Shown here: piece by piece, positions 1,574-46,741 of the stretch
How the letters are laid out: every line of letters starts with the position of its first letter
Position numbering within the stretch: position 1 is the first letter of the stretch
DNA from: Astropecten irregularis
Taxonomy: Eukaryota; Echinodermata; Asteroidea; Paxillosida; Astropectinidae
Direction: 5' to 3'
DNA: 64,000 nucleotides
Assembly (NCBI GenBank): GCA_963971285.1
Contig: OZ020265.1
Coordinates: forward strand, 3,574,270-3,638,269
Position numbers and translations under genes: made by a program
Notes under the pieces: model-generated
Seen by the model: the letters and a program-made list of their open reading frames with translations, nothing else
Database searches by the model: none
What the model was told of the DNA's origin: nothing

Positions 1574-4500
1574 TTATTCATCATTGAAATCAAATGGCTC
1601 AAACTTCTGACGAAACACCTGTGCAAGTCTTGTCTCTTCCTCTTTGTCAGTCAAGCATGCTTTCCAATTAGCTCTATCTGCCATATTCAGAAGATCCTCA
1701 CATGCCATCACCTCCCTGTAAAAAAACATCAACACAATATTACACATATACAGAAGGGAAAACTATTTGACAGGTCTTTGAAATTAAATCTGTTAAATTT
1801 AAAGAATTGAAAAGTGAACACAGAAATTCAAACTGGCGACATCCTGAATACAGTACAGGCGCTCTATCATCTTGAAATTTAAAGAATAGAAAATGTTCAA
1901 TCTGGCATATATGGTTTGTACAAGGGATCCTTTTGAACGCAGTATTTCTGTACTGTGTATTTTACTGTGCAAATTGTATCAGTTAATTACCACTATGCAC
2001 TCATTACTTTTCATTGCCTATTAGTCAAAATTCAGCTGCTTGTTCAGATATGCAATTAACACATATTCTTCTGCTAACTATCACAAATGCCATGCAAACC
2101 TGAAAGTCCAGCAAAGAGGTCTATACTACAAGCAATTTTGTATTTTTGTAGTTATCAAATCATACAAAACCTATCGATTAGCATTTCGATACTCCTTTGT
2201 GGAGAGAAAAAACAGTGAAGAAACTATGATCCACTCATTAGATTCAAACCCCATAACTTTACAAAATATAAATTTAAGATCAATATGCATAATAGGGCAT
2301 CACTTCCAAGACTAACCTGCCAAACTGCAGGGGGAAGAATTCTGCCTTTTTGATCTGGTGCAAGAGCTTCACTCTGTTTTCCAACTCAACATAAAAGTAA
2401 GGATTGCCAGGTGATACAACCTGTAATAAAAAAAAGCATGTTATCATTTACTTCAGTTATGACGAATCATTTAGCATCAGCTTAACTACATCACTGCGTG
2501 CTTTTTTAATGTATAATATCACAGTGTGGCCTTCCCATGAGTCCAGAAGTTATGATCTGCATGATAAAATTGGTTTTTCTTGATTGCCTTTATCAATTTA
2601 TCAAGAGTATGTAAACAACTATTGAAAGAGAAGCATAACCACCCATAAGTACAGCTGAGTGTGCTATTTGACAAATTGATGTATCAAAACAACAACAAAG
2701 ACCATCATTTTATGATTTATGAATGTCAATAAAATGTGTCTCCTTGCATTGGGGCTGGGAGGCTTCACAACTTATCATAATCACTTTCCAATGCTGATCT
2801 TCTATATAAGCAATTACAAGTACATCAAAATGACAATGAATGAGTGTTCATACTTCTCATTCATACGAATAATTTAAGTTTGTCAAAAATATGAAAAGAA
2901 AAAACAAACAAAACAACAACCAACCAACTTACTGATTGACTGACTAGACTCATCCACTCTCATCTGTCCTTTTCAGGACCACACATCTTTCTAAAAGATA
3001 TTTTTTTATATATGGTGTCACCGCAAGCCTTACTCTCTCTGACTACACTCACTTGAACCAACAAATGAACCTTTAAAGAAGAATGTATTCTCCTCCTCCC
3101 CTTACACCTCTTTAAAAAAAACTCTCTCAATGTTGTACCTGCTTCAAATCTGTGTGTTTGGGAATCTCAAACAGATCCAACGTCTGATCCTCTGCCCTGG
3201 ATATGAATACCTCCTTGATATCATCACACACATCCATGTCAATTGGTATGACCTGTCATTGAGCAAAAGAGAAAAAAACAGTTAAAGGTACAGTACACAG
3301 GATTGGTATTAACATACGTTTACCCAAACAGAAATGTTCACAGAATTACATATAACTTTCAGGGTATAAATATTGTGCTGGTAGAAACAGAAATTAGTCA
3401 AACAAAGACCGAAAACAGTTTAGATCTCAGGGTAAGATCAAAAGTATTTTTTATGTTATATAAGAAAAATTGAGTTGGGTTTTCGCTATTTTCTCAGGAC
3501 TCAGATGTCTGATTAAGCTCAAATGTTCACAGGTTTATAATTTCAAGTACATAATGTATGCAAGATCAGGAAAAGTGCGAGTATTATACCTTTAAAGAAG
3601 TTCCCTCATCTTCTTTTCTCTCGATAAGGATAACTTCTGAAAACATCTTCCCACAGCCCATTCATATTTGAAATAAGTGAATTGGGCACCAAACCTGACT
3701 CCCTGGCTCCAGTGTCAAGATTTTGTGATTCAGGAACTCCATAATACTAATTTAATACCAATTGCAAGATGAAAGTTCTTGAGTTATCAAGTTTGTTTTT
3801 ATCATGATAATTGTCATGAATGCTGACTGCAAATCTTGAAAATGAACAAAACATATCTGAAAGATGCATACACAAAATGTAGTAAAGATATGAGTGGAAT
3901 GAGAATATACCAGTTAAACAGTTTTGTACAGATTGGTCCCAAAGTAAAGTTGAAAGTAACAATTAACAGGATTAACTGTTAATTGTTATAACTTAGTCCT
4001 TTGTTTTGTCTAAAAGAAAAATGATATTGTAGCTTGTCAATTCTCTTCACACTTCTTGATGCCCCTTTTCTAAACATTCATTCCTAATACTAGTAATCAT
4101 AAAGTATAAACATGTAAGTAATCTACCGGTACTATCCAGTAGTATTTTTGTATTTCACCATCCCTGTTAATTCACCTGTAGCTGCAGATGTTGTGTCTTG
4201 AAGTTCCTTTCAAAGATCACACATGCCTTGCCAACTGAACTGAAGTATTTCCTTACTGCACTCTTGTACTGTTCCAGCTCCGAAAGAACATCCTATAAAT
4301 AGACAGAAGAAATAAGATATTACTGGTGGAACAAAGAGGAGACAGAGTGCTTTTGAGCATCTTCAAGCTTGACATTATTAAATACTCAACTGATTTTACA
4401 AAATGTTTACAGGAATGGTTTACAGCTATCTCATTCCCACAAGTGTGATCTTATCCGCCATGTTTCCACACCAAGTCTTGTATGGTGGGGACCCCATTTA

Positions 4501-35995: not shown

Positions 35996-38900
35996 TTAGA
36001 CAACTATTTTCGTCACTGGCCTCTGATACTCTCCTTTGTCGGTTTTCACCTTGACACTTCTCACTCTTCCGTCATTACCTGGATATACATCAACAATTCT
36101 TCCTAGCTTCCACTGACCACGAACCAAGTTTGGATCTGCCAGTATTACCACGTCATTCACCTGCACATTTCTCCTGTCTACGTTCCATTTTCGTCTAGGA
36201 ACTAGAAGGGGGAAGACATCCCTGGTCCAAACTTTCCAAAAGTTATCGATCACTTTCTGCACGAATGCAACTCTGTCTCTTGGGTTGCTTGTCTCACGGA
36301 AGGGGCCCTGTGGAACTCTGTTTGACGTTCGTCCTAATAGGATGTCATTTGGGCATAAGAATGCCCCGTCGTCTGGATCATTTAGTTTTCTGCCGATAGG
36401 ACGTTCATTCACAAGGTTCGCCACTTCCTGGAAGCAAGTAAGAAGCTCAAACGGTGTCATCTTCTGATTGCCAATTGACTTCTTCAATGCACGTTTGCAG
36501 CTTTTTACAAGTGCTTCTACACATCCGTTGTGGTGAGGAGCAAGAGGAGTGATGAATCGCCATGTTATTTGCTGCTCTGCACAGTATTCTTTCAACTGAT
36601 TCTTGTTTAGGCCTTGGATCCATCTTCTCAATTCCCTCTCGGCGCCAACAAAGTGCTTTCCGTTATCGCTCTGGATGAGGTTTGGTTTTCCTCTGACTGC
36701 ATAGAATCTTCTCAGTACCTGAAGAAATTCATTAGTAGAACAATCTGTGGCCAAATCTAAGTGGACTGCTCTGGTGTTCATACATGTAAATATAACACCG
36801 TAGTACTTCTGGGTTTTATTTCGGCCTATCTTGACATCATATGGCCCGAAATAGTCGACTGCTGTGCAGTGGAACGGAGGTGTGAAAGGCATCATCCTCT
36901 CATCTGGTAGATCAGCCTTATGTTCAAAGGCTCTACACTTGGTACACCTGAACTTAACCGTCTTCGCCAGATTCATTCCTCTAACAATCCAGAAGTTCCG
37001 TCTTACTTTGGCATCAGTGGTTGCTACTCCATAATGTCCAGTCTCGTGGACATGCCTCACTATCAGGTAAGAAATGGGATGTTCTCTTGGCAGTAGCACA
37101 GGGTGAGCGGTATCATATGACAATTTTTCTGCATTTGCTCTTCCTCCCACATATATTACATCATCTTTTACGAAGGGACTGATTGACTTGTAGCTGTCAA
37201 GGTTCTTCAGCATCTTCTGCGCGTCAACAATCCAGTAGTGTTCGGCATTCTTTAGCTCTTGCACAGATAGCGGTCCGTCATACTCTCGGCATCTTGCCTT
37301 GACATTTCTGATGAATCTCAGCACATAAGCAGTAACTCTTACCAACTTTCTCCAGCTCGAGAACTTCGTTGCATCTATTGCCATGTCAGTTGGTTTTATC
37401 AGCAGGACGGTTTTTTCGTTCTTCTTCTCTTTCTCAACTTCATTTGTGTCTGCCTTTGAGTTGGACTTCGGCCATTCTTCTTCTGGCAACCTGAGAAATT
37501 CCGGTCCTGATTTCCATTCTGTTAGAAGATCTTCAACACTTACACCTCTGGAGATCTTGTCTGCAACGTTGCATTCTCCTGGAACATGTCTCCAATCTGA
37601 TGGGTCGGTACTTCCCTGAATCTCGGCAACTCTGTTCGCAATGAAGGGCTTGTATTGACGGGACTGACCTCTAATCCAGGATAGTGCTATGACTGAGTCA
37701 GAGAGAAAGATGACTCGCTCAACGCAGGTTGACAACTCTTTGGTCACCGAAACAAAGATTCTGCTCGCTAGTACTGCCGCTTGTAGTTCAAGCCTAGGGA
37801 TCGTCAGAAACTTCAGGGGAGCTACTCTGGATTTTGCTGTCACGAATCTCACTCCAACAGTTCCATCGGGCATCTCATACCGCAAATAACAGACAGCACC
37901 AAATGCAAGTTCAGATGCATCACAGAAAATGACCATAGTTTTCTCTGCATTTACCTCAGGAATCAGACATCTCTCGAAGGAGATTCCATCCAGGGAACTC
38001 AATTCGGCAAATAGTTGCATCCATTTTGAGACCTCGGCCTTGTCCAGCTGTTCATCCCACGTCACACCGGTTTTCCACAGTTGTTGCAACATGATCTTGG
38101 CACGGATGAGGAACGGCCCTGCGAATCCTATAGGATCAAACACCTTTGATATTGCGCTCAACACATTTCTCTTGGTCAGTTTGGAGCCAATCGTACTCTG
38201 CTGGACTTTGTATTTGAGCACATCAGATTCTGGTTCCCACACAACTCCCAAAACTTTCTGCTCATCAGGACAGGACAGCATACTCTGCTCGGGAAAGGTT
38301 TCATCACCATTCAAACTTGCATTTGAAGTCCACTTCTTAACCTTGAATCCACCTGTGGAGAGAACCTGGTCTACCTCCTTAGTGAGTGTAATAGCCGACG
38401 TCTCATCTTTCACCGACGTGCAGATGTCATCCATGTAGGTGTCTCTCTCCAGGGTTTTAGCTGCTTGGGGGTACTTTGCCTCATTTTCTTTGGCAGTTTT
38501 CCGAAGTGCTGTGATAGCCATAGCCGGTGCAGGTTTATCGCCTGGTGTGACGATTTTCAACACATATGTATCAGGTGCTCGCTGCTCAAAATTCCGCCAC
38601 AAGAAGCGATGTACATGCATGTCGTTCAGTGGTATTTTCACTTGGTAGAACATCTTGCTAATATCTGCTGCGACGGCTACCTTGAATTCACGAAACCTCA
38701 ATATGACTCCATTGATGTTCTGCAGTAGATCTGGCCCTTTATGCCAGAAGTCATTCAGTGAAGCACCGTTACATACACTTGATGAGTTGAAGACAATTCT
38801 CACTGGAGTGCTTGCACTTTCAGGTCTCAGAACAGCGTGATGAGGAATGTAATGAGTCGGCCCTTTGTATTCACTTTTCTCCTGGTTGGTCAGTTTCTGA

Positions 38901-39436
38901 GCAAATCCACGGTCGACTAGGTCGCATATAGCCTTGCTGTACTGTGCTGCAGATTCCGGTGTCTTCTTTAGCCTTTTCTCGAGAGAGCAAAGCTTTGCAA
39001 AGCACTGACCTTCATAATTGGGCAACTCATCTGGAGATCTTATCCAGGGGTAGGGTATCATCCAGTGTCCATCAACTTTCTCACATGACTGCCACATCTC
39101 GTCGAACTTCTTGGTGTCTTCAGGGCTCAGAGTGACATCCTTTGTGTCACACTTACAGGTGGGCAGTTTCACACCCATTTCTTCAGTTGTCCAGAACTGC
39201 GCCATGTCGACAGGCTGAGCTAGTTTAACTAGAAGTACAGGATTGCTCTGTTGACCGGTAACTCCATCGGTGTAGGCACCAAATACAACCCATCCTAGCG
39301 GTGACTTCCTGGTAGCGTAGTTACCTACATCAATACATCTTCCAGTATGCATCTTTGCATAGTTGATGCCAATCAGGACGTCCACTGCTCCGCTCCCTCT
39401 GTGTATGGGTTCGCCTATCTTCTGCTCAACATTCAA
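35996..39436 (-). CDS. BEL/Pao pol polyprotein (RT, RNase H, integrase)
   Basis: Uninterrupted 1146-residue frame. Reverse transcriptase shows AVAADISKMFYQV and the YMDD box in RDTYMDDICTS; RNase H shows IFCDASELAFGAV and FLSDSVIALSWI; the integrase has an H-H-C-C finger (HVHETGHYG, CTKCRAFEH) and acidic triad residues in VDYFGPYDV, IQSDNGKHF and NGCVEALVKS. The C-terminus (RRNVQVNDVVILADPN, WKLGRIVDVYPG) is DUF5641-like. The internal Met given as start is probably not authentic; the polyprotein was continuous with the gag-protease frame, from which it is separated by a frameshift. The openness of this long frame suggests recent activity. Confidence 0.9.
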   Translation of the reverse strand: MNVEQKIGEPIHRGSGAVDVLIGINYAKMHTGRCIDVGNYATRKSPLGWVVFGAYTDGVTGQQSNPVLLVKLAQPVDMAQFWTTEEMGVKLPTCKCDTKDVTLSPEDTKKFDEMWQSCEKVDGHWMIPYPWIRSPDELPNYEGQCFAKLCSLEKRLKKTPESAAQYSKAICDLVDRGFAQKLTNQEKSEYKGPTHYIPHHAVLRPESASTPVRIVFNSSSVCNGASLNDFWHKGPDLLQNINGVILRFREFKVAVAADISKMFYQVKIPLNDMHVHRFLWRNFEQRAPDTYVLKIVTPGDKPAPAMAITALRKTAKENEAKYPQAAKTLERDTYMDDICTSVKDETSAITLTKEVDQVLSTGGFKVKKWTSNASLNGDETFPEQSMLSCPDEQKVLGVVWEPESDVLKYKVQQSTIGSKLTKRNVLSAISKVFDPIGFAGPFLIRAKIMLQQLWKTGVTWDEQLDKAEVSKWMQLFAELSSLDGISFERCLIPEVNAEKTMVIFCDASELAFGAVCYLRYEMPDGTVGVRFVTAKSRVAPLKFLTIPRLELQAAVLASRIFVSVTKELSTCVERVIFLSDSVIALSWIRGQSRQYKPFIANRVAEIQGSTDPSDWRHVPGECNVADKISRGVSVEDLLTEWKSGPEFLRLPEEEWPKSNSKADTNEVEKEKKNEKTVLLIKPTDMAIDATKFSSWRKLVRVTAYVLRFIRNVKARCREYDGPLSVQELKNAEHYWIVDAQKMLKNLDSYKSISPFVKDDVIYVGGRANAEKLSYDTAHPVLLPREHPISYLIVRHVHETGHYGVATTDAKVRRNFWIVRGMNLAKTVKFRCTKCRAFEHKADLPDERMMPFTPPFHCTAVDYFGPYDVKIGRNKTQKYYGVIFTCMNTRAVHLDLATDCSTNEFLQVLRRFYAVRGKPNLIQSDNGKHFVGAERELRRWIQGLNKNQLKEYCAEQQITWRFITPLAPHHNGCVEALVKSCKRALKKSIGNQKMTPFELLTCFQEVANLVNERPIGRKLNDPDDGAFLCPNDILLGRTSNRVPQGPFRETSNPRDRVAFVQKVIDNFWKVWTRDVFPLLVPRRKWNVDRRNVQVNDVVILADPNLVRGQWKLGRIVDVYPGNDGRVRSVKVKTDKGEYQRPVTKIVV

Positions 39437-40253
39437 TCTCAGGGCATTGCTGATCGCTGAAACATTGGTTATCTCCGGTACACCGACTGCAGTTATGGAG
39501 AATGATTTTCCTTTCGTTGGATGTCACTGTCATCTTGTATGCCCTGGTATGCAGGAGTGACCTCTCACCGCCAAGCGTCGATATATCTACAGTGACTGGC
39601 TTACTTGGAAACTTGCAGGCTCTGGCAAGGTCGTCTCTCACCAAAGTCAGCGTCGCACAGGTATCAAAGATCACATTTATGTCTCGGTTCAGCACTTCTG
39701 CAGTGATCATCGGGAGCACAGAGACTGTTCCTTCACTGGCTGTGTTCAGGCTCATGATCTGACCGGTTGTTGCAGCGGCTACAAAGTGTAAGAGCGGGTG
39801 ATGGAAGGAGTCACAGTGCTTGCATCTTCTCTTACGCCGGCATGTATTTATGTAGTGACCTTTTCCAGCTCGCTTCAGACAAGAAAAGCAGACATTCTTC
39901 TCCTTTGCCTTCCTCATACGCTCTTCCGGTGATAGCTGCAAGATTGTAGGGCACTGATCAGGCCAATGCTCGTCGGTGTTGCAAGCCCAGCATTTGTTCC
40001 ACTTCGTCGTCACATTTGCATCTGTTTGCAGTATACGATGGCTGCCGGTTGCATCTGTATTCTTGGTTGGCTTGAAAGCGCTCACCATGTCAGTACCATA
40101 CACAGGGTCATTCATCTCGCAGGCAGATGCTCTCACGAACTTGACGACGTGGCTCAAGCTTGGTACCTGGCTCTTCTCTCGGAGCTTGAATACCTCTCTG
40201 GTCCATCTTTGCTGGAGAAATCTGGGTACCTTCTCAATGATCATCCTATACAC
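39426..40253 (-). pseudogene. BEL/Pao gag-protease fragment
   Basis: Residues about 90-165 carry two zinc-knuckle-like groups (CWACNTDEHWPDQCP and CFSCLKRAGKGHYINTC, then CKHCDSFHHPLLH), followed by a DUF1758 aspartic protease with the active-site motif FDTCATLTLV, where Cys stands in place of the common Gly/Ser. The N-terminal gag is absent (the frame has a stop three codons upstream of 40253) and the frame ends at 39426 out of phase with pol, so this copy is broken at two points. Confidence 0.75.
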
Positions 40254-42345: not shown

Positions 42346-43597
42346 AATTACTAGAGCGCTAGCTCCGTGTACAGAGTGATGCCTGCTGGGCGCATCCATG
42401 TTTGTGCACAAACCTATGCTATGGAAAACACAAAATTGTGTACGTTTTTGTACGTTCTGTATATCTGCGTTTAGCCTTAGGCTACATCCAATGTTGGGAG
42501 TGAACACGGGAGTCCTCCTTACAACATTGGAAGTAATCTGCGTTGTGTTCTACACCGAAGCTGGTCAACTCGTACGCCGACCAACTCGTACGCCGACCAA
42601 CTCGTACGCCAACCAACTCGTACGCCACGTATAATTAAGCTTGTAGTTTGTAAACGTTTTTTTTTCAGTAGATTTTGTCATGTTGAGTGAAAATAGAAGG
42701 AAATAAAGGGGAGCATTCTGTAAATTCACTATGTGGAACTCGTCTGTGAAAATAAGCGGAAATAAAGGAAGCATTGTGTACATGGAATTGGATGTCGTAT
42801 GTGAACATAAAAGGAAATAAAAGGAAACATTCTGTATGTGGAAGTGCAAAAAAAATGTTAGGTAGGATTTTAATTTTATATAATAATAATTTATTGCATT
42901 TCTTGTGTGCCATTTCCATCCAAGGATCGATGTTCAAAGGCGCAATTACAGAATCAATTAAATATGTGATTTTTACGGTAGGCTGACTGAAATGGAGGAT
43001 ACTGACCGGCTGGTAGTTTTCCAGCACCAGGAGATTTTAGGGGAGTATTTTAAAATTGGTGGCAGGGGAGCACCATACCTGATATAGTAGATTACAATTT
43101 ACAGTAGATTATAAAAAAGGTAATTACTGCCGTACTACAGATTTGGAAATTCGCATCACATTCACACTGCTTTGTAGTGCGGACATGGGAGAGGTGTAAT
43201 TAGTAATTAGTAATTAACAATCATGACTGACAGCTTTTATGTGTACCGCAGAAAGTAGCTGATTGACAGCCATTGTGATCTTTTAGCTTTTATGTGTACC
43301 AAATGAAGAAGCATCCGCAGAGCCCTTGAAAAGTATTCCTTTGTTGTAATAGAGGGTCAGTGAAGCATCCTGTCAATATTTACTGCTTGTGATGATGCCG
43401 TGTTTTGTCAGTCTCTTTCGCTAATTAGAAACATTATACAATTTCATGACGCTATGGGCCATATGGGCCATGGAAAATTCCTCAATATAAGCCCGGTTTG
43501 GTTACACTGCCAGTCACTTGTATGCCAACTTCCCTGTGCTGTGACAACAAGATTCTGCTCTCCCATTCAAGTAATCTCCAAGTCAAGACTATTCAAG

Positions 43598-45420
43598 ATG
43601 AAGTACCCATGTGTCGTCTGCTCCAAGGCTGTCCGGAGAAACCAGAAGGCGGTACAGTGTGACAACTGCAATGGTTGGCAACATCTCGCCTGTGGAACGG
43701 GGTTTTCTGCGGAGGACTACAAGCTGTTAATGGAGTGACTCCTCGGAGCTCACATCGTGGCATTGTGCAATCTGTTTCATTTCTTTTACTGAGTCTCCAA
43801 TTCCAGTGGGAGAGAGTACCAGAGCATCTGCTCACTCACTTTCTCCTGGAATTGAAGATGACGTGATGGAAGTGGACGAGCATGCCCCTTGTAGCAACGG
43901 GGAGTCTGACATGCAGTTTGAGGTCTCACGTAGTTATGAGATACCGCAGCCACCGGAGGAGGAAAGCATCTGCATCGCTGACGCACCTGCCCCCAAGACC
44001 TTCAAGCTGCGTGTCAAGACGTGACCATCACATACAAGATGTTGCAGAGCGGAACCCAGCGGGGGAAGCCGATTTTGGTTGACAGCCGTGGCTATAAATA
44101 CACCAAGAGGTGGCAGAGGAATCCGTCATCAAGCAAGTGCGCCTGGGTGTGCAGTGTCCGGGGCAGGAATCAGCGCTGCTCAGCTTCCGTTCTGCAGCAA
44201 GGAGATGTATTCAAGCCTGGTACCACTTCGGCTCATTCTCACCCAGTGGAACCGGACACAGCAGTAGCTGTTGAGTTTTCCACAGCTGTGAAAGCGAAGT
44301 CCAAGCAGGATATGTTTAGATCTGCCGGTGCCATCGTGGAGGAGATCATGACGACCCGTGCAGCTGATATCGAACCTGCAAGCTTCCCCAAGCCGGCCAA
44401 CCTGGTGTGGGTCGCAAACCGTACTCGCCAAGGTCTTCGTCCTCACGAGCCAACGGACCTGAAGTTTCACCTGGCCACTGACTTTATACCTCTTGATTTC
44501 TTGGTGAAAGACATCGTCGTTGGTGATGAGAGGCATCTTCTATTCATGTCCCCGGAACAAACCAGCATCCTGGACAGAGCCAAGACCTGGTACCTTGACG
44601 GCACCTTCAAGGTGGTACACAGGCCATTCGTCCAACTTCTCAGTATCCATGCCTTTGTGAAGTCAGAGTGCATCATAAGCAAGTCCCACTGGCATTCTGC
44701 CTAATGTCACGCCGTACCAAGAAGGATTACCGGAAGGTTCTTCGAGCTGTCAAGAAGAACTTGCCATCCAGAGGTGACATCGTGCAGAACTTCGTCGTGG
44801 ATTTTGAAGCTGGAATGTTGTCGGCGCTTCGGTCTGTCTATCCCGATCGTCAAATCCAAGGCTGTCTGTACCACTGGTCACAGGCGCTCTGGCGGAAGTG
44901 CCAAGGCCTGGGTCTTGCTGTGCCATACATGTGGGAGCCTGCAGTGCAGCGTATCATCCGAAAGCTGATGGCCCTGCCGTTCCTTCCTCATGAGCATGTC
45001 CAGCCAGCATTCAGCAAGCTACAGGGCAAAGTCACGGAACCCCTCCTGTGCCAGCTATTCAAGTACGTCGAGGAAACATGGATCAGTAGCAGCGTGTGGA
45101 GCCCAAGAGACTGGTCCATCTTCAACCAAAGTGTTCGCACTAACAACGATGTTGAAGGCTGGCATCGGAGGCTCAACTTCAAAGCTGGAAGACCAGGACT
45201 GGGGCTCTACCAACTCATCCCTCTCCTCCATGCAGAAGCCACCATGGTGACCATCCAGATGGTCCTGGTCAGAGAATCTAAGGTGTGCAGAAACCAGCGG
45301 AAGAGTAGCAGGCAACTTCAGGGACGGGTCTTCCAGCTATGGGACAAGTATGTCAGCGGAGAACTTACCACATCAGGACTTCTGGCTGCGTGCAGCTATC
45401 TACATGGCCCTTCCATGTAA
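43598..45420 (+). pseudogene. MULE transposase with PHD and FLYWCH fingers (frameshifted)
   Basis: Reads, with frame changes, as: a PHD-type finger from 43598 (CVVCSKAVRR, CDNCNGWQHLAC, then WHCAIC in another frame after about 43735), an acidic linker, a FLYWCH zinc finger (44051-44250: RGYKYTKRWQRN, WVCSVRGRNQRC, HSHP) and a MULE DDE domain. Acidic residues are seen in WYLDGTFKV, FVVDFEAGM and TNNDVEGWH; the C-x-H motif is GCLYHWSQAL. Frames change near 43735, 44020 and 44680. The change points lack convincing splice sites, so I treat them as frameshifts, not introns. The last segment ends at TAA 45418-45420, 22 nt before a histone-type stem-loop. Confidence 0.8.
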
Positions 45421-45442
45421 TCCAGCGACAAAAAACCCAAAT

Positions 45443-45458
45443 GGCTCTTTTCAGAGCC
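45443..45458 (+). promoter_or_regulatory. Histone-type 3' stem-loop 1
   Basis: GGCTCTTTTCAGAGCC: a 6-bp stem, TTTC loop, with CCAAAT before and ACACA after. This is the canonical replication-dependent histone mRNA 3' stem-loop bound by SLBP. It begins 22 nt after the transposase stop codon, on the sense strand. A purine-rich AAAAGAGAAGAAA, resembling a histone downstream element for U7 snRNP, follows at about 45502-45514. Confidence 0.75.
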
Positions 45459-45474
45459 ACACATTAAACCAAAC

Positions 45475-45490
45475 GGCTCTCTTCAGAGCC
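45475..45490 (+). promoter_or_regulatory. Histone-type 3' stem-loop 2
   Basis: GGCTCTCTTCAGAGCC: same 6-bp stem with loop CTTC, preceded by ACCAAAC and followed by ACATATC, then CCCAAAAGAGAAGAAATAAA. It is a tandem duplicate of stem-loop 1 with one loop change. Confidence 0.7.
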
Positions 45491-46493
45491 ACATATCAAC
45501 CCAAAAGAGAAGAAATAAAAGGTTCCCATCCCCCCCCCCCCAAAAAAAAAAAACGGAACAATAAGAAAACAAAAAACGGCTCTTTATAACCTAAAAAGAG
45601 AAGAAATAAAAAGTTCCCAGTTCCCCCCCAAAAAGATTAAGAAAAGAAGAAAAAAAATGCTCTTTTTAGATCCCACGCAACCCAAAAGAGAAGAAATAAA
45701 AGGTTCCCAGAAACAAAACAAACAAAAAACGGCTCTTTTTAGATCCCACGCAACCCAAAAGAGAAAAAAATAAAAAGGTACCCAGTTACAAAGAATTTCG
45801 TTATTACAAACAACAAATAATTAGAGCCCCCACACTCACTATCCTCTCACACAAGAATACCAATCCCACGCAACCCAAAATAAAAAAATAAAAATAAAAA
45901 GGTACCAAGTCACAAAGAATCGTTATTACAAATTACAAATAATCAGAGCCCCCCACACTCACTATCCTCTCACACAGAAAAGGTTTCCAGTCTCTCAAAA
46001 CACACACATATATTTTGTTAGAATTTGTTTCGTTATTACAGACTACAGTCTTTTTTTTTTGGTGGTGGCGACAAGTTGGTCGGCGTACGAGTTGGTTGGC
46101 GTACGAGTTGGTCAGCGTACCAGTTGGGGCATACAAGTTGGTCGGCGTACGAGTTGACCAGCATTCTTCTACACTACAGTATCGTGGGGGGTCCCGTTAT
46201 CAAGGGGCCGTATTTCCGTGGGCTTACCTTCTGCGTTACCCGGTCGCGGCGCGATGTAAACAACTTCGGATGACGTCAAAAAAGTTTGTGAGTGATGATA
46301 GATGTCTCCTCTCTTTGCTGACCCAAAAATATGGAAAGTTAAGGCTTTACTAAAAATACTAGTAAGTTGTATTAATAAATATCTAATTTGGAGACCTGTA
46401 CTTTAGACCATATTTAACAAGATACAAAAGTGTCCAAACTTGCGAGAGTCAAAAATAAACAATGCACTTTCATTCATAGTTTTGGGTTACTGT

Positions 46494-46741
46494 GTTTCAA
46501 ATTGCCATTCGTTCATATTGATGTCACGTGACTTTATTAGCAATCATGCATGCTGGGTAAACGACTACGGAAGTCTGTAAAGGACACATTCCTTATATAA
46601 TTTTGTTCCCTCTACTCGTTTCAAATTGCCATTCGTTCATATTGATGTCACGTGACTTTATTAGCAATCATGCATGCTGGGTAAACGACTACGGAAGTCT
46701 GTAAAGGACACATTCCTTATATAATTTTGTTCCCTCTACTC
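46494..46741 (+). repeat. Perfect 124-bp tandem duplication
   Basis: Copies 46494-46617 and 46618-46741 appear identical. The unit contains ATGTCACGTGACTTTATTAG, GCATGCATGCTGGGTAA-like sequence and a TTATATAA motif. The identity implies a very recent duplication or an assembly artefact. Confidence 0.85.

Follow-up and report, generated by a model that had tools for sequence, protein, structure and literature searches.

The window analysed here is a stretch of 64,000 nt from contig OZ020265.1 of Astropecten irregularis, whose genome comprises 475.7 Mb in 168 contigs. In the following, genome loci are labelled L and contigs are labelled C (e.g. C8, C11, C18). The window contains a complete MULE-type DNA transposon of 3611 bp on the plus strand (42556-46166), which is bounded by inverted repeats and by an identical 8-bp target site duplication, TTCTACAC, on its left (42548-42555) and right (46167-46174) side. 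MULE target duplications range from about 8 to 11 bp. Duplications of 8 bp are also found at L013 (GTAGTAAT) and L019 (ATGCCACA), that is, in 3/3 copies for which both ends were located. The left inverted repeat (42566-42626) consists of 3.8 tandem copies of a 16-bp unit and the right inverted repeat (46063-46156) of 6.1 copies, and the outermost bases are asymmetric in the window copy, L013 and L019, with CGAA on the left and ATTC on the right. The inverted repeats are thus composites of short units in tandem, and the element has asymmetric outermost bases, as seen in Tm1; it also shows the MULE domain, terminal inverted repeats and 8-bp target duplication by which the MULE class is recognised. 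Two identical 124-bp tandem copies lie just outside the MULE, at 46494-46741.

The coding part of the element is on the plus strand. An ORF with a PHD finger (43400-43738; Pfam PF00628, E 9.8e-6) probably represents, judging from its position, the 5' portion of this gene for the transposase. The middle part of the transposase frame (44021-44704) has no match in Pfam; in L017, one open frame runs through both this part and the MULE part. The C-terminal ORF (44668-45420, with the TAA at 45418-45420) carries the MULE domain (PF10551, E 5.8e-9), which is also found in L017 (E 1.6e-10) and L010 (E 2.1e-10). The window transposase is a broken copy, with a frame change near 44.69 kb and an early stop (TGA) that ends the PHD part. 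Pfam detected no FLYWCH domain at E <= 10 in the window ORF and none at E <= 1 in L017 and L010; a FLYWCH-like spacing is visible by eye only. We do not file the element as Phantom, since of the N-terminal FLYWCH zinc finger and the MULE domain that mark this subclass, only the MULE domain was detected.

Downstream of the transposase stop, two histone-type stem-loops follow in sense orientation. The first, GGCTCTTTTCAGAGCC (45443-45458), begins 22 nt after the TAA and the second, GGCTCTCTTCAGAGCC (45475-45490), begins 54 nt after it; both have a fully paired 6-bp stem. A candidate histone downstream element (U7 site), AAAAGAG, is located on the same strand 12 nt after the second loop (45503-45509). 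The purine core given for a histone downstream element in PMC7026596 is AAAGAG. Shortly after the candidate U7 site, and 23 nt after the second loop, we found AATAAA (45514-45519, plus strand), and because of this possible poly(A) signal the message could also be polyadenylated. The region from 45567 to 45792 contains decayed tandem units on the same strand, which are made up of half a stem-loop, AAGAGAA and AATAAA. Within the window copy, the loops occur only on the 3' side of the transposase, 676 nt from the right end.

A sequence-only reading of this DNA had noted two perfect histone-type stem-loops 22 nt after the MULE stop in sense orientation, together with a purine-rich stretch resembling a U7 target. 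The coordinates and the pairing bear out the loops, and AAAAGAG at its position 12 nt after the second loop agrees with the proposed U7 target. Shuffles, folding and Rfam likewise support the loops. A degenerate loop pattern was seen four times in the window, both loops included, compared to 0.16 times expected in shuffles, and the folding z-scores of the two loops are -4.5 and -5.1. The Rfam model Histone3 spans 45470-45516 with 34.2 bits, which is barely above its cut-off of 34. Furthermore, we built a covariance model (R1) solely from 13 host histone 3' ends; its E-values are rough. With this model, 45467-45515 is the top site of the window (48.8 bits, E 1.1e-8), and the decayed units give weak matches of 15.6 bits (45650-45696) and 24.4 bits (45723-45769). 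A chance match is excluded by the shuffle expectation, the host-histone model and the survey of the family.

For this survey, the genome was searched with the 250-residue C-terminal part of the transposase, which resulted in 70 matches, 19 of them reaching residue 244 or beyond. A sense loop is present downstream in 13 of these 19 C-terminal matches. Ten carriers were read in letters (window, L012, L017, L077, L078, L079, L080, L081, L082 and L083) and three were found by pattern position only (C8:37821593, C8:38014601 and C11:16664087). Conservation of the loop 3' of the stop among relatives in the same genome, which the sequence-only reading had put forward as a check, is thus observed, although the copies share descent and the 13 carriers do not represent 13 independent events. 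Three further matches that were read (L084, L085 and L086) have no loop within about 180 nt downstream, and the remaining three (C16:12398307, C11:20357772 and C11:16673501) were left unread and count neither way; the narrow pattern lists no loop near them. The amino-acid identity to the query is 50-100% for carriers and 46-52%, over a part, for non-carriers, where the ranges overlap as the lowest carriers have 50-52%. Our guess from these partial, mostly lower-identity matches is that L084-L086 may form an outgroup.

The copies show the histone-type arrangement of a 6-bp stem and a 4-nt loop shortly after the stop. In seven of the eight copies measured, the distance between stop and loop is 16, 17, 19, 22, 56, 64 and 67 nt. 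The exception is L082, where the stop of the matched frame is located 107 nt before the loop and a stop in another frame 52 nt before it. The longest open frames were found in L077 (514 aa) and L081 (508 aa); their relative L082 has 311 aa. L078 contains three successive loops with the core after the last one. Among the derivatives, the internally deleted L010 and L011 retain at least one intact loop, and the shorter L013 and L014 contain decayed units only, with no intact loop. The window also includes a second, broken MULE on the minus strand (55497-53689), which has no loop after its stop and an AATAAA about 500 nt downstream.

The U7 core AAAAGAG is present at histone spacing in 6/10 copies read. 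In five of these (window, L012, L017, L078 and L079), it is located 12-13 nt after a loop. In L083, it follows 12 nt after a second loop that is damaged (by eye), and the host-histone model matches there with 44 bits. In addition, C11:16664087 fits the loop-plus-core pattern, as judged by pattern. The core of L080 is damaged, and AAAAGAG is absent within 34 nt of the loop from L077, L081 and L082; in these three copies, cutting would either depend on a poor U7 site or not take place.

To compare the MULE copies with the species' own histone 3' ends, as the sequence-only reading had also suggested, we located the host histone genes by a search with PF00125. They form a tandem cluster at C18:15.63-16.05 Mb, and additional genes are scattered. 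Among the 14 distinct ends listed, most have GGCTCTTTTCAGAGCC, then ACCAC or similar, and AAAAGAG 11-13 nt after the loop, and 10/14 have TGTCTG after the U7 core. The MULE ends resemble these replication-dependent histone genes in the form GGYYCT-loop-AGRRCC with AAAAGAG following at such a distance, and two copies (L012 and L083) also have TGTCTGT after the core. They differ from them in that the MULE message encodes a transposase. The context of the loop also differs: MULE copies often have CCAAAC or CCAAC before and ACACA, ACATA or AACAC after the loop, whereas most listed host ends have CAACC before and ACCAC after it. The comparison came out in favour of a likeness, as model R1 matches 10/10 copies read, with scores between 27.7 bits for L077 and 66.5 bits for L078 (E 7.9e-13) and E <= 8.3e-4 throughout. 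In the three non-carriers, the model finds nothing at E <= 1. Similarly, Rfam Histone3 at E <= 0.01 matches 7/7 newly fetched carriers vs 0/3 non-carriers. Rfam's own cut-off is reached by only 3/7 newly fetched carriers (L078, L079 and L080) and also by L012 and L017.

We then compared the loop to its flanks in five subfamily representatives (window, L077, L078, L079 and L083) without gaps, where indels lower the identity of the flanks. The loop is identical at 148/160 positions compared (93%), whereas the distant flanks (25-29%) have 50/201 identities between -60 and -21 and 117/400 between +21 and +60. The near flanks are intermediate, with 46/60 at -6 to -1 and 21/40 at +1 to +4. The positions of the U7 core (+13 to +20) are not conserved in this ungapped comparison (26/80), and the core sits there in 3/5 representatives. 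Three things account for the low value: the offset of the core varies by one position, the core is missing from L077, and the first loop served as anchor for L083. In L083, the stem is altered on both sides (GGCCCT...AGGGCC). A scattered host histone gene at L076 3632 (C10) has a two-sided stem variant, GGCCCTATTCAGGGCC, as in the L083 MULE.

Regarding the host machinery, the RNA-binding domain of SLBP (PF15247) was found in two pieces at C18:19075697-19076489, the weaker of which has one TAA inside the matched stretch. An Rfam search for U7 snRNA gave no match, and the search controls likewise gave none; a U7 snRNA pattern had three matches vs four in controls.

The classic example of animal mRNAs that lack a poly(A) tail are the histone messages, whose 3' end signal is considered almost exclusive to them. 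In the MULE family, we observe this signal behind the transposase gene, with the core at histone spacing in six of the ten copies read; its loop is conserved across subfamilies, and it is similar to the host's histone ends, in a genome that has an SLBP gene. We thus think it probable that, in an animal MULE lineage, the transposase message has a 3' end of the histone type. The steps that we infer beyond the signals are modelled on the known histone pathway (PMC5636114, PMC7026596). SLBP would bind the stem-loop after the transposase stop and U7 snRNA would pair with AAAAGAG about 12 nt beyond the loop. A cut between loop and AAAAGAG would then result in a short, non-polyadenylated transposase mRNA, whose synthesis and translation would coincide with the activity of the histone machinery, i.e. 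in S phase, in the egg and in the early embryo. The loop would have been derived from the 3' end of a host histone gene and later kept by selection. Such a capture is a plausible origin, and some copies share TGTCTGT with the host ends.

The same loop could be used in other ways. SLBP might bind it to assist in translating, exporting or degrading a message that receives its poly(A) tail further downstream, with no U7-guided cutting. In C. elegans histone genes, a hairpin and a conserved poly(A) signal occur together (PMC1924863). In line with such a use, AATAAA is located 23-121 nt past a loop in eight copies or derivatives (window, L010, L011, L012, L017, L078, L079 and L083), and L077, L081 and L082 retain a loop with no recognisable U7 core. 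AATAAA also follows some host histone loops. However, L077, L081 and L082 have no AATAAA in the 38-105 nt that were read after their loop. The finding of AAAAGAG 12-13 nt after a loop in six of the ten copies read, with C11:16664087 fitting the same pattern, also argues against SLBP acting without cutting, which we regard as unlikely.

Alternatively, the loop might be a passenger that came in when an ancestor took up the 3' end of a histone gene; it would have no role and would simply not have decayed so far. It is known that plant MULEs capture pieces of their host (PMC8277862), and the authors who described Tm1 proposed such an acquisition for Tm1-HH (PMC3169594). That the unit is subject to decay is evident from the degenerate additional copies of it in the window; yet the loop itself is 93% identical among representatives whose flanks beyond 20 nt are near chance, and one stem has changed on both sides. 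A passenger would also leave unexplained the sense orientation in 13/13 carriers and the position close behind the stop wherever this was measured, and we consider it improbable. We deem it very improbable that the hairpin acts at the DNA level as a subterminal part needed for transposition. For such a role speaks a different, high-copy inverted-repeat element that has the loop in both arms, facing outward (L006). In the window MULE, however, the loops are confined to the 3' side of the transposase, 676 nt from the right end, and L013 has a clean target duplication with no intact loop. Moreover, a DNA hairpin would need neither a U7 core nor histone spacing.

The sequence-only reading had stated that it knew of no described case. 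This goes too far, as a histone hairpin in non-autonomous Mutator/Foldback elements of root-knot nematodes (Tm1-HH and the Cg-1 transcript) had already been reported in 2011 (PMC3169594). Tm1 belongs to the Phantom subclass of the Mutator/Foldback family and has composite inverted repeats, 9-bp duplications and a transposase of 496 residues. Tm1-HH is a non-coding class of Tm1 with the histone hairpin, of which there are eight elements in M. incognita. The authors tentatively explain the hairpin by capture from the host and leave open whether it is under selection (PMC3169594). A search of the open-access literature in one library revealed no case besides Tm1.

When comparing our element to Tm1, we find several similarities. 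In both, the inverted repeats are composites of short units in tandem (about 14 bp in Tm1, 16 bp here) and the outermost bases are asymmetric; both have a long target duplication (9 bp in Tm1, 8 bp here) and a histone hairpin between the repeats. Both also have a MULE-domain transposase, which has 496 aa in Tm1; the open frames of our longest copies span 508-514 aa. In contrast to Tm1, where the hairpin is found in non-coding copies, it is located here 3' of the transposase ORF in 13 copies. The single Tm1 transposase copy described there has possible poly(A) signals, whereas a U7-core-like site at histone spacing was found here in 6/10 copies read. In addition, the loop is conserved across subfamilies here and FLYWCH was undetected. 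New are the placement on the transposase gene, the histone-spaced U7 core and the conservation. Another known system with some resemblance are the Pack-MULEs and Pack-TIRs, i.e. elements with terminal inverted repeats that hold host sequence (PMC8277862); the piece considered here would differ from these in being a signal for RNA processing that is attached to the transposase gene proper. According to that study, the animal reference genomes it examined yielded no Pack-MULE (PMC8277862).

As the hairpin is located behind the transposase gene here, Tm1-HH can alternatively be read as a relic of a transposase 3' end. This leads to a wider hypothesis, which we consider possible and put forward tentatively. 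The histone-type 3' end may be a trait of long standing that selection maintains in an animal Mutator lineage, in which a pseudo-histone transposase mRNA would tie transposition to replication and to eggs and early embryos, and would escape poly(A)-dependent control. The Tm1-HH hairpin might then be left over from the 3' end of an ancestral transposase gene instead of having been captured from the host on its own; the signal might also have been taken up independently by other mobile families of the present genome. If selection indeed keeps the signal on the transposase gene of a mobile element, the histone 3'-end pathway could be hijacked, transposition would be directly linked to S phase and early development, and the nematode oddity of 2011 would have a possible explanation.

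Lastly, we looked at histone-type ends elsewhere in the genome. A strict loop pattern occurs 6492 times genome-wide compared to 1317 times for the reversed control, and the loop plus U7 core occurs 474 times, host histone genes included, compared to 0 times. Among 100 loop-plus-core places listed (C1 to C12), eight are at or near histone genes, seven are near MULE transposase matches and 85 are elsewhere. In 23 of the 32 listed places with letters shown, ACTCAYAAAA precedes the end of the core. The 36-mer GGTTCTTCTCAGAACCACACACTCTCACAGAAGAGA, which has a compensated stem, has 662 exact occurrences (control: 0) and is part of an inverted-repeat element; L006 shows both arms of this type of element with their outward-facing loops. 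Rfam Histone3 is above its cut-off in L002, L003, L005 and L006, where the host-histone model reaches 39.3-43.5 bits. It seems, from these sequence matches, that more than one mobile family in this genome carries histone-type ends.

An insertion of the high-copy inverted-repeat element beside the MULE was rejected as the source of the MULE loop, since the end motif of that element is absent from the MULE copies examined (<=3 mismatches). Among the loci examined at this threshold, the motif was found only in L002, L003, L005, L006, L007 and at window positions 3010-3029. A hammerhead ribozyme in the inverted-repeat element was likewise rejected; Rfam lists none at E <= 1 in L006 1380-1760. The window itself contains a decayed copy of this element at 2957-3029, with a damaged loop (TGTCCTTTTCAGGACC) and the end motif on the minus strand, and the host-histone model matches this copy with 21.1 bits (E 0.029). 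Apart from the known histone loci, C1, C8 and other contigs repeatedly contain a third dispersed sequence, which is like GGCTCTTTTCAGAGCCACCCCATACTCACAAAAGAG. The window further includes a Pao/BEL-type retrotransposon on the minus strand (35996-40253), with matches to peptidase, reverse transcriptase and integrase in 35996-39436 and a further ORF at 39426-40253.
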